A stretch of 41,124 nt of DNA, taken from positions 1-41,124 of the forward strand of contig JAJRRH010000154.1 in NCBI GenBank assembly GCA_024279715.1. Direction: 5' to 3'. The stretch is from Bacteroidota bacterium. Lineage in GTDB: Bacteria; Bacteroidota; Bacteroidia; Flavobacteriales_D; JABDKJ01. Below, one piece after another: positions 35,519 through 40,104 of this stretch. Made by a program: the position numbers and the translations under genes. Positions within the stretch are counted from its first letter, which is position 1. The number at the start of each line of letters is the position of its first letter. The notes beneath the pieces were generated by a model. It searched no databases, was not told the origin of the DNA, and worked only from the letters and a program-made list of their open reading frames with translations.

Positions 35519-37834
35519 CTAAAATTTGAAACTTACACCTCCCAACAAATTAAACCCTGCTTGTGGGTAATACCCAACATATCCCGGCCCCCAATATCCA
35601 TTGGATTCATATTCTGCATCTAAGATATTATTAAGCAGTAGTGAAAGATTGATGGACTTAAAAGTGGTTTTTGGTTTGATCGTATAATTAATACTAACAT
35701 CATTGACAAGGTATGAATCCAACTTTGATAACGGTGCTTCAATATTACCCATAAATTGTTCGCCTACATATTTAGTTAGGAGGGTTATCCAAAGAGAATT
35801 TACTGGATTGTAAGCCAATCTATTTCCAGCGATTATCCCTGGAGAGAAACTAATTTTTGTATTTCCTAACTCTTCTAAGCCATTTTCGTTGGACGTGAAA
35901 AAATTTATATTCTCGTTTTTGCTTAATGTGATATTTGGAATAAAATGTAGTCTCTCATGCAATACAAAATTCGCATCGAACTCCAATCCGGCGCGGTATG
36001 ACTCTCCTATGTTCGTCTTGACAGGAGCTCCCGTATCATCTAATGCACCAGTTAGCACCAATTGATTTTTATAATTCATAAAGTAGGTGTTGACATTGAT
36101 TGCTGATTTGCCTATTTTAACTCTATACCCCAATTCAAGATCGCTCAATTCTTCCTGTTTAGGGTTTCCATTTTCATAGTCATTTCGACTAGGCTCTTTG
36201 TTTGCCAAAGCATAGGATATGTATGCTAGACCTGATTTAGTTTTGTACGAAAGACCGACTTTTGGATTGAAAAAACTGAAAACATCTTCTATTTCATTTT
36301 CGGCTACACCACTTGCATTATAGCGTACGTTTCTCAATTGAACATCAGTAAATAATTGTAACTGATTACTAAAGCTATAAGTGTTTTTCCAGTAAATGTT
36401 TTTCTCCGTTTTGTTTCCAAAAAAATCATAATAACGTTCTCTTATATCCGCTCCGAAAGTTATTTCTGCCCATATAATTTCGCCAAAATGGTCGCCATTA
36501 TATTGATTAAATGAAAACCCTAAGATTGATTCTACTTTTTCAGAATGATAGGTTACGGAAGTAATTGCTCCATAGAAGTTATTATTTAGCCATTTTCTCC
36601 GGATTAAGTCTGTCATTCCAAACTCACCTACAGGAGCATTGATATAGTCAGTAATATTCTCATCTTGTTTATACTGCTCATAATACCCCCTACCCCAAGT
36701 ATAATGTCCTGTCAAATTGAAGTTGAAGTTGTCATTTATTTTTTGGTTAAGTAACAACTGATAGTGATCCTGGCTGTAGTGATCGACCTGATTGTCATAA
36801 TATAGAACGTTGCCATCATCATCATAATGCTCTCCAGCGAAGTTATGTGTACGATCACTCGCCAAGGTCTCAGGATCTACGCCATACCATGCTTGATACG
36901 TTTCCTCCAATCCACCAAAAGCGAGGGCCTTTATCATTGTATTTCCTTTATTGTAGGATAGCTGGGTGAAATATGAACTCAAATCGGAAGATGCTCTATC
37001 GATATAACCATCTGATTTTATTCTTGATAATCGTCCGATGAAATTAACACTGTTATTGAGTAATCCTGAATCAAATTTTAGACTTGCTTTTCGTGTGTTA
37101 AATGACCCTGCTGAAGAGGATATTTCCACGCTTGACTCGTTCGATATTCCATCCGTCAATAGGCTTAGATTGGCGCCAAAAGCGCCTGACCCATTAGTGG
37201 ATGACCCAACACCTCTTACCAACTGTACGTTTTCAACGGAAGAAGTGAAGTCTGGCAGATCGACCCAATAAGTGGTTTGACTTTCCGAATCATTGTATGG
37301 CACACCATTGATGGTGACATTGACACGAGTAGCATCACTGCCTCGCACACGCATACCTGTATATCCAACACCCGCTCCCGCATCAGAAGTAGTGACTACA
37401 GAAGGTAGGTAATTTAGAAGAATCGGCAGATCTTGCCCTAGGTTTCTCTCAGATAATTCACTTTTACTTAGTTCTGAAAAAGACATAGGACTTGTCTCTT
37501 TTTCTCGGATGGCAGAGATTAAAACTTCATCCATGACGTTCACACTAAAGATTAGTTTTATGTCTTGTTCAGTATCTTTTTCTATTTGGATAGTGATAGA
37601 ATAGTCATCATATCCAATACGTGTTGCATGAAGAGTATGACTGCCTTGGCTTACTTCAATCCTGTATTCACCGTTGGCGTTCGTTAAGAGGTAGAATGAC
37701 TGATCATCTAGGTTAATTGTAACATCTTCTAATGGGTCGTTTTGGGCATCGGTGACAGTTCCATAGATCGTGAATTGCGCTTGTGAAACAAAGGTCACAA
37801 ACAATAAGAGTAGGGTAATAAAAAGACTACGCAT
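35519..37834 (-). CDS. TonB-dependent receptor, likely thiamine-related by its upstream riboswitch
   Basis: Signal MRSLFITLLLLFVTFVSQA; FTIYGTVTDAQNDPLEDVTINLDDQ; plug YTGMRVRGSDATRVNVTINGVPYNDSESQTTYWVDLPDF; C-terminal GFNLLGGVSFKF. Start set at 37834 because the ORF-track extension runs through the riboswitch. Confidence 0.93.
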   Translation of the reverse strand: MRSLFITLLLLFVTFVSQAQFTIYGTVTDAQNDPLEDVTINLDDQSFYLLTNANGEYRIEVSQGSHTLHATRIGYDDYSITIQIEKDTEQDIKLIFSVNVMDEVLISAIREKETSPMSFSELSKSELSERNLGQDLPILLNYLPSVVTTSDAGAGVGYTGMRVRGSDATRVNVTINGVPYNDSESQTTYWVDLPDFTSSVENVQLVRGVGSSTNGSGAFGANLSLLTDGISNESSVEISSSAGSFNTRKASLKFDSGLLNNSVNFIGRLSRIKSDGYIDRASSDLSSYFTQLSYNKGNTMIKALAFGGLEETYQAWYGVDPETLASDRTHNFAGEHYDDDGNVLYYDNQVDHYSQDHYQLLLNQKINDNFNFNLTGHYTWGRGYYEQYKQDENITDYINAPVGEFGMTDLIRRKWLNNNFYGAITSVTYHSEKVESILGFSFNQYNGDHFGEIIWAEITFGADIRERYYDFFGNKTEKNIYWKNTYSFSNQLQLFTDVQLRNVRYNASGVAENEIEDVFSFFNPKVGLSYKTKSGLAYISYALANKEPSRNDYENGNPKQEELSDLELGYRVKIGKSAINVNTYFMNYKNQLVLTGALDDTGAPVKTNIGESYRAGLEFDANFVLHERLHFIPNITLSKNENINFFTSNENGLEELGNTKISFSPGIIAGNRLAYNPVNSLWITLLTKYVGEQFMGNIEAPLSKLDSYLVNDVSINYTIKPKTTFKSINLSLLLNNILDAEYESNGYWGPGYVGYYPQAGFNLLGGVSFKF

Positions 37835-37840
37835 TGTTAG

Positions 37841-37862
37841 AAAAAAGTATGTAGGAGTACAT
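37841..37862 (-). terminator. Weak terminator-like hairpin, possible riboswitch expression platform
   Basis: Minus strand ATGTA-CTCC-TACAT-ac-TTTTTT between aptamer and start codon; only 5 bp. Confidence 0.35.
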
Positions 37863-37870
37863 TCATCAAA

Positions 37871-37943
37871 ATCCCTTTCAAGCATTATCTCGACAGGTTC
37901 AATGGGTATAATCTCAGCCCTTGTATTGAAGGCACCCCTGGGT
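37871..37943 (-). promoter_or_regulatory. TPP (THI-box) riboswitch aptamer
   Basis: Minus strand: ACCCAGGGGTGCCTTCAATACAAGGGCTGAGATTATACCCATTGAACCTGTCGAGATAATGCTTGAAAGGGAT. Contains THI-box landmarks GGGGTGCC, GGCTGAGA, ATACCC, GAACCTG, GATAATGC and AGGGA in order. Confidence 0.95.
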
Positions 37944-38105
37944 TTATGTAGCGGCGAAGGTAAGGTTTTTTTGTTTGAGAATTTTTTTTCCGAATAGTCG
38001 AACTTAAGGAATCTCTTTTTGCGCTTCGCATTCTTTCCTTCTAGGGTTAATTAAATGGGGGTTCGACGGTTCTATCTTAAAAATTTGCGGCAAAAGAACG
38101 ACGGC

Positions 38106-39148: not shown

Positions 39149-39523
39149 ATGAAAAAAGTGACTTGCGTACGATTAGAAGCTAACGAGAAACAAATTCAAC
39201 GATGCCATGAGTCTATTCGCCTTGTTGAAGTCCATATTATTGAATTGGCAAACGTTCTGAATCTTGTTGGAAATGCTGTTCGACTCAAAATAGTGTATTT
39301 ACTGCATGCTGAAAAAGAATTATGTGTATGCGATATAAGCGATGTGCTACAGATGAACGTTTCGGCCATCAGCCAACACTTAAGAAAATTAAAAGATGGC
39401 GACCTTGTCACAGCCAAGAAGGAGGGGCAAACAATTTATTATTCGATAAAAGAGGATTATAGAAAGACGCTTTCTCCGATTTTTAGGCAGATAAATTCAC
39501 TGAAAAAAATGGAATTGGTATGA
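39149..39523 (+). CDS. ArsR/SmtB family metalloregulatory transcriptional repressor
   Basis: LANVLNLVGNAVRLKIVYLLHAEKELCVCDISDVLQMNVSAISQHLRKLKDGDLVTAKKEGQTIYYSI; ELCVCD metal-site motif. Confidence 0.95.
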   Translation: MKKVTCVRLEANEKQIQRCHESIRLVEVHIIELANVLNLVGNAVRLKIVYLLHAEKELCVCDISDVLQMNVSAISQHLRKLKDGDLVTAKKEGQTIYYSIKEDYRKTLSPIFRQINSLKKMELV

Positions 39524-40104
39524 AAAAGGAAAATGCGGTTTTAGGCTCGGGTGTTATAGCAGCGTTAGCAGCATCTTCTTGTTGTATCCCACCTGTGGTT
39601 GCAGCCATAGCGGGAATTGGAGGTGTCTCTTCAGGGCTTTCCTGGATGGAACCCTTGCGCCCCTATATGATTGGTCTGGCTGTAGTTTCTATCGGCTACG
39701 CTTGGTATGACCACCTTAAACCCAAAAAAGAGACGGATTGTTGCCCCTTAGAAAAACCAAAATTTTATCAAAGTCGAAGTTTTCTCATTGGTATCACACT
39801 TTTTTCTCTAATCTCGATTGGGTTTCCATACTTTACAAAGGATTATTTTCCAGAGAAACTAACCAACGACACCATCGTTACGACGGAAGAAAATATGGAG
39901 GAAAAGCGAATTGAAATAGAAGGAATGACATGTGTAAGTTGTGAGCATCACATGAATACTGCACTAATGAATTCAGACGGTGTAATAGAAGCTTCCTCAT
40001 CTTTTGAAGAAGGATATACAAACGTACGATATGACAAAACCAAGACTGACTTAGAAACACTTAAAAAGCAAATCGAGAACGAAACTGGCTATAAAACAAA
40101 ATAA
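39520..40104 (+). CDS. merTP: MerTP-type mercuric transport fusion protein (MerT + MerP/HMA domain)
   Basis: N-terminal AALAASSCCIPPVVAAIAGIGG (MerT Cys pair) with TM helices; C-terminal HMA domain IEIEGMTCVSCEHHMNTAL. ATGA overlap with ArsR. Confidence 0.93.
   Translation: MKKENAVLGSGVIAALAASSCCIPPVVAAIAGIGGVSSGLSWMEPLRPYMIGLAVVSIGYAWYDHLKPKKETDCCPLEKPKFYQSRSFLIGITLFSLISIGFPYFTKDYFPEKLTNDTIVTTEENMEEKRIEIEGMTCVSCEHHMNTALMNSDGVIEASSSFEEGYTNVRYDKTKTDLETLKKQIENETGYKTK

Follow-up and report, generated by a model that had tools for sequence, protein, structure and literature searches.

What does a TPP-type aptamer sense, and what does it control, once the site that reads the diphosphate has been lost? 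TPP riboswitches are viewed as being among the most conserved RNA sensors, with a strict reading of the diphosphate. The window, a 41,124-nucleotide stretch of a Bacteroidota genome, raises this question through an element on its minus strand, placed between ribF (39053-38106) and a gene for a TonB-dependent receptor (35519-37834). The initial annotation had listed ordered THI-box landmarks at this site; all of them were located, and a covariance-model scan aligned the element to RF00059 from end to end (37949-37855, minus strand; 41.5 bits, E 5.3e-7):

37855-37949, minus: variant TPP-family aptamer (full-length RF00059 match; conserved core from GGGG to AGGGA, 37938-37872)
37931-37938, minus: 5' strand of P2, GGGGUGCC, whose GGGG is also targeted by a C-rich anti-aptamer segment
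37912-37917, minus: J3/2 CUGAGA, an unaltered pocket that holds the aminopyrimidine (HMP) ring (RF00059 alignment, variant/canonical comparison)
37907-37904, minus: ACCC, ordered THI-box landmark
37900-37894, minus: GAACCUG, ordered THI-box landmark
37888-37883, minus: AUAAUG, ordered THI-box landmark holding the L5 UAAU
37876-37872, minus: AGGGA, ordered THI-box landmark

Both the P2/P3 arm with the J3/2 UGAGA pocket and the L5 UAAU loop of RF00059, which docks on P3 in that family (here as AUAAUG), are present in the window. At 41.5 bits, the aptamer falls short of the RF00059 gathering score of 54.3 bits, and a default Rfam scan at this threshold reports no match in the window; it is nevertheless the sole credible RF00059 match in its own genome, which is 71.6% complete. 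The cmsearch check proposed in the initial annotation is thus formally negative at the gathering threshold, yet comparison with relatives overrules it: we judge the element to be real despite its score, since RF00059 is matched in 58 of 60 related genomes, mostly below the cut-off as well, and the match is just upstream of the receptor gene where that gene is present.

This comparison covered G000-G059, a set of 60 genomes from the order to which the window's own genome belongs. Twenty of the 58 matching genomes score above the cut-off, while G027 and G038 carry the variant yet yield no RF00059 match. A receptor orthologue was found in 49/60 genomes at E 1e-60, in four further genomes the aptamer is followed by a receptor that is more distantly related, and wherever the receptor is present in this order, the aptamer adjoins its upstream side. 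ThiC occurs in exactly seven of the 60 genomes, all without the receptor and with canonical aptamers upstream of ThiC. In the other 53, ThiC is absent and aptamer plus receptor are present. Hence, receptor and ThiC are mutually exclusive in this sample.

The regulated gene itself reads as follows:

35519-37834, minus: TonB-dependent outer-membrane receptor, 771 aa (Pfam; orthologues behind the same aptamer)

The protein comprises a signal peptide, a CarboxypepD_reg-like domain, a plug and a barrel, with Pfam matches to PF07715 and PF13715 that identify plug and outer-membrane receptor. Its longest open reading frame starts at 37885, an AUG that lies inside loop L5 of the aptamer, while translation from 37834 gives a protein whose N-terminus resembles a signal peptide (MRSLFITLLLLFVTFVSQA), and the starts in relatives mostly lie 40-180 nt downstream of the aptamer. 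The earlier correction of the start from 37885 to 37834 therefore holds. No solved structure matching the receptor by sequence was found. In the receptor tree, the protein sits in an all-variant clade of Flavobacteriaceae (98-99% local support), away from G001-G003 of its own family (loci L025, L023 and L028); horizontal transfer may have brought in both receptor and aptamer. At 39149-40104, next to ribF, the window encodes an ArsR-family regulator and, after it, a MerT-like protein that includes a fused heavy-metal-associated domain.

Given the exclusivity of ThiC and receptor over the 60 genomes, the receptor is very probably an importer of thiamine or a precursor, as had been predicted from the sequence and as the placement of the aptamer supports as well. 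Many relatives have, directly before aptamer and receptor, a gene of the pnuC/pnuT type as well as one for a NadR-like P-loop kinase; together with the missing ThiC, these neighbours support import of thiamine or a precursor. Looking for thi and pnuT genes in the rest of the genome, as initially suggested, we found ThiL; ThiC, ThiE (TMP-TENI) and TPK_catalytic were not found in this assembly, which is 71.6% complete. A pnuC/pnuT-like gene and kinase pair lies on another contig of the genome and resembles the pair adjoining the receptor in relatives. There (L244 on contig C167 of G000, 1366-2603), the gene for the PnuC-family transporter overlaps that for the NadR-like P-loop kinase. We rejected the transporter as a dedicated PnuT because NCBIfam calls it PnuC with a NadR-like kinase. 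As TPK_catalytic was not found and ThiL is present, this kinase might phosphorylate thiamine to TMP.

When the aptamers preceding the receptor were written out, they fell into two kinds, canonical and loop-less. The canonical kind follows CCUG-AU-(P5)-CG-N-AGGGA, whereas the window carries the loop-less form:

37873-37898, minus: variant P4-P5, ACCU-G-UCGAG-AUAAUG-CUUGA-A-AGGG (covariation over 54 distinct variant sequences)

In the window, P5 consists of five pairs and is continuous up to a G.A mismatch on P4, with a U-A and a C-G pair at its base occupying the former pyrophosphate-binding internal loop. This J4/5-J5/4 loop (G60/A61/U62 and C77/G78 in thiM numbering) is gone in the variant: G60 is kept, and two pairs are found at the positions of A61/U62 and C77/G78. 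Among the 54 distinct variant sequences, these pairs form in 51 (94%) and 50 (93%), respectively, each with six standard pair types, and for P4-P5 as a whole the covariation score reaches 0.480 as compared to a shuffled mean of 0.117 and to at most 0.122 with slid partners. In the canonical sequences, by contrast, G78 is invariant (34/34) and C77, A61 and U62 are each at least 90% conserved. The CUGAGA pocket, GGGGUGCC, ACCC and GAACC (J2/4 included) are the same in both kinds, and the L5 UAAU is nearly invariant among variants, which is partly imposed by the search pattern. Three loci (L026 and L027 in G037 and G057, L231 in G223) have an intermediate P4-P5 in which the CG of J5/4 is kept and J4/5 is shortened; they are possible steps between both architectures.

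In the known aptamer, C77 and G78 bond the pyrophosphate, and G60, C77 and G78 hold the metal ion (PMC3764141, PMC7824784), while the HMP pocket contacts are made by G40/G42/A43 (PMC7824784). The designation of the element as a TPP riboswitch thus stands in part. A THI-box aptamer does lie directly before the receptor and is conserved across Bacteroidota, but an ordinary TPP sensor is not supported, because pyrophosphate- and metal-contacting nucleotides are absent and covarying base pairs are found instead. A search of the open-access literature returned no published TPP variant without the J4/5-J5/4 loop, although this does not prove that none exists.

Scanning GTDB species genomes with a pattern that describes the variant aptamer only, we obtained at least 118 loci, nearly all from Bacteroidota (Flavobacteriaceae, Saprospiraceae, Lewinellaceae, Marinilabiliaceae and Bacteroidales). 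Among the matches listed, the receptor lies downstream in 107 of the 111 variant loci with a readable ORF (L141 being counted by weak similarity only); the other four of these listed matches precede ThiC (two), an ECF transporter ATPase in Lactobacillus and a fragment resembling a receptor start. In the Lactobacillus nasalidis locus (L157, 551-2682, minus strand), the loop-less aptamer is upstream of the ECF transporter ATPase and a T component; judged by its sequence, this is the same loop loss outside Bacteroidota (in Bacillota), before another putative transporter. In a survey of 248 genomes from the phylum, every group had the canonical form, and the loop-less one was nearly confined to the class of the window. 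Of 14 variant loci tested, 11 were under the Rfam cut-off or unlisted. The variant branch is widespread in Bacteroidota and poorly detected, and annotation by Rfam threshold overlooks much of the regulation of thiamine import in this phylum.

Both kinds can reside in one cell. In 11 genomes (G071, G114, G152, G239, G259, G267, G310, G311, G312, G315 and G316), which are non-independent as they stem mostly from Flavobacteriaceae plus one genus of three, the canonical aptamer precedes thiS/thiC, thiM or pnuT and the loop-less one the receptor, and the reverse was never seen. An exception to this division of labour is found in two Marinilabiliaceae (G308, L278; G309, L284), where the variant is also upstream of the thiS-thiC operon. 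Besides, loop-less and canonical aptamers occur in tandem, in either order, before one receptor gene at L129, L153 and L115, a possible case of two-input control. On a tree of 194 receptor sequences, with the tandem loci L129 and L153 labelled by their gene-proximal aptamer, the aptamer kind changes 13 times as compared to about 53 times if shuffled, and at least five of the 13 changes are forced by well-supported branches. As read from this tree, the aptamer kind is inherited in blocks, yet has been switched repeatedly.

The sequences flanking the aptamer contain candidate elements for its expression and output:

37955-37962, minus: Bacteroidota-type -7 promoter element TACCTTCG (motif enrichment over orthologous loci)
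37853-37860, minus: C-rich anti-aptamer segment GUACUCCU, which can pair with AGGGGUGC of the aptamer (37939-37932)
37841-37862, minus: small hairpin AUGUA-CUCC-UACAU followed by U6, a possible but weak expression-platform hairpin

The -7-like element noted initially is borne out by comparison: TANNTT[TC]G is found no more than 45 nt upstream of the aptamer, at a fixed spacing, in 146/175 loci as compared to 7.2 expected by shuffling. Some 33 nt upstream of the start codon, the C-rich segment is complementary to the GGGG of P2, and its motif occurs in 89 of 120 variant leaders (35.7 expected) and in 38 of 45 canonical ones (11.4 expected). The bases flanking this segment correspond to those flanking its target in the aptamer more closely than in permuted data (0/2000 and 1/2000), a comparison that still includes sequence relatedness. 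Promoter and expression platform are common to both kinds. As to the hairpin and T-tract that had also been proposed, both exist (37862-37849 and U6 at 37846-37841), but the stem is weak and A-U, and the terminator scan called no intrinsic terminator at the window hairpin, so that a terminator reading is weak. A P1 pairing of UACAU with AUGUA is possible in the window; across 175 loci, however, P1-type complementarity is no better than chance (4.81 vs 4.71 in shuffles), and we rejected a P1/hairpin switch as the general mechanism on this ground.

We consider it somewhat probable that the element is a cis-acting riboswitch of a variant TPP/THI subclass that controls an importer of thiamine or a precursor with OFF logic and without reading the diphosphate. 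What the computations show of this model is the variant architecture with its conservation and covariation, its association with the receptor gene, and an anti-aptamer segment that co-evolves. The host is apparently unable to make the pyrimidine half of thiamine. In the variant, the pocket for the aminopyrimidine is retained, as is the L5 loop that closes the arm, and the internal loop of the second arm has been turned into a continuous P5 helix with a G.A mismatch on P4. With the pyrophosphate-reading site replaced by a plain helix and the pyrimidine pocket intact, ligand recognition is likely altered. On the most economical reading, the ligand would be of the thiamine type, recognised through its pyrimidine without diphosphate reading; thiamine itself is the likeliest candidate, otherwise HMP or TMP. 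That a new subclass senses unphosphorylated thiamine or a pyrimidine precursor after loss of the pyrophosphate-reading site is a tentative proposal, to which we give slightly less than even chances. Ligand binding would stabilise P2, the C-rich leader segment would be freed from its pairing with the P2 GGGG, and the freed segment would lower receptor expression. Ligand identity and OFF logic are inferred from the sequences, and control may act on transcription or on translation. Counting against the model, canonical and variant aptamers both precede orthologous receptors, and the repeated switching of kind on the receptor tree could mean that either can functionally replace the other. The variant before thiS-thiC in Marinilabiliaceae, the non-independence of the 11 genomes and the chance-level P1 weigh against it as well. 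In Bacteroides thetaiotaomicron, a response to thiamine was seen for the biosynthetic operon but not for the transcripts of OMthi and pnuT (PMC5613172), a result that agrees equally with translational control and with a different ligand.

The same switching, with one receptor family served by both kinds, also favours a variant that still senses TPP, the diphosphate and Mg being held by the backbone or the major groove of the rebuilt P4-P5 helix. The change would then tune affinity, e.g. through weaker binding, so that import is shut off later than biosynthesis. The promoter and expression platform shared by both kinds agree with such an arrangement, as do the tandem aptamers, given that tandem TPP aptamers for a single ligand are known from Bacillus anthracis. 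It is hard to reconcile, however, with the fate of C77 and G78, the sole directly pyrophosphate-contacting and essentially invariant nucleotides, which are now freely varying pairs, nor would it lead one to expect that the two kinds are strictly assigned to different genes within 11 genomes. We regard continued TPP sensing as plausible but somewhat doubtful.

If the aptamer were decaying and non-functional, a mere relic in the 5' UTR, its score under the Rfam gathering cut-off, the lost pyrophosphate site and a P1 no better than chance would all be accounted for, but not the compensatory changes in P5, the conserved HMP pocket and L5, or the promoter spacing and co-evolving anti-aptamer motif that are maintained across Bacteroidota orders; we consider decay very unlikely. 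Equally improbable, in our opinion, is the fully canonical TPP riboswitch of the initial annotation with a score lowered by sequence drift. Although the RF00059 match is full-length and TPP riboswitches are known to control OMthi receptors in Bacteroides (PMC5613172), the drift is non-random: no member of the variant set has the loop, covarying pairs being present instead, and canonical aptamers within the same genomes retain the internal loop. We therefore favour the variant that leaves the diphosphate unread. If its ligand is indeed unphosphorylated thiamine or the pyrimidine precursor, the same cell could adjust import to the vitamin and biosynthesis to the coenzyme, with the variant used mainly for the uptake receptor and canonical copies for synthesis. 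A large natural group in which the diphosphate site is swapped for a plain helix would represent a natural switch of specificity, and what cells sense when they control the import of vitamin B1 becomes directly testable.

Compared with known systems, the window RNA shares P2, P3, the J3/2 UGAGA, J2/4, P4 and the L5 UAAU with the TPP aptamer (RF00059, THI element; E. coli thiM), and both are found in 5' UTRs of thiamine genes. It differs from it in that the C77/G78 loop is replaced by two covarying pairs and a G.A mismatch, in an apparently rudimentary P1, and in that most variant members tested score under the gathering threshold. A functional counterpart is OMthi/omr, an outer-membrane transporter for thiamine under the control of a TPP riboswitch (B. 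thetaiotaomicron BT2390; PMC5613172, omr PMC2211319), for which thiamine import is supported by genetics (PMC5613172). There, too, a TonB-dependent receptor follows a TPP-type aptamer, but the window contig lacks pnuT or tnr3 beside the receptor, and the aptamer subclass found here has not been described for that system. Another riboswitch, that for HMP-PP (thiS motif), senses a thiamine-pathway compound other than TPP and occurs in tandem with TPP riboswitches (PMC6478431), yet it has an unrelated fold with a terminator-embedded aptamer and is found mainly before thiS, whereas the window RNA is a modified TPP aptamer. Finally, variant riboswitch classes with altered ligand specificity have been described within the guanine class (PMC9295807) and for the change from SAM to spermidine (PMC10853860). 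The loop-less aptamer resembles these in its altered ligand-contact positions and its distinct gene association, with a ligand that we infer to be thiamine-like.
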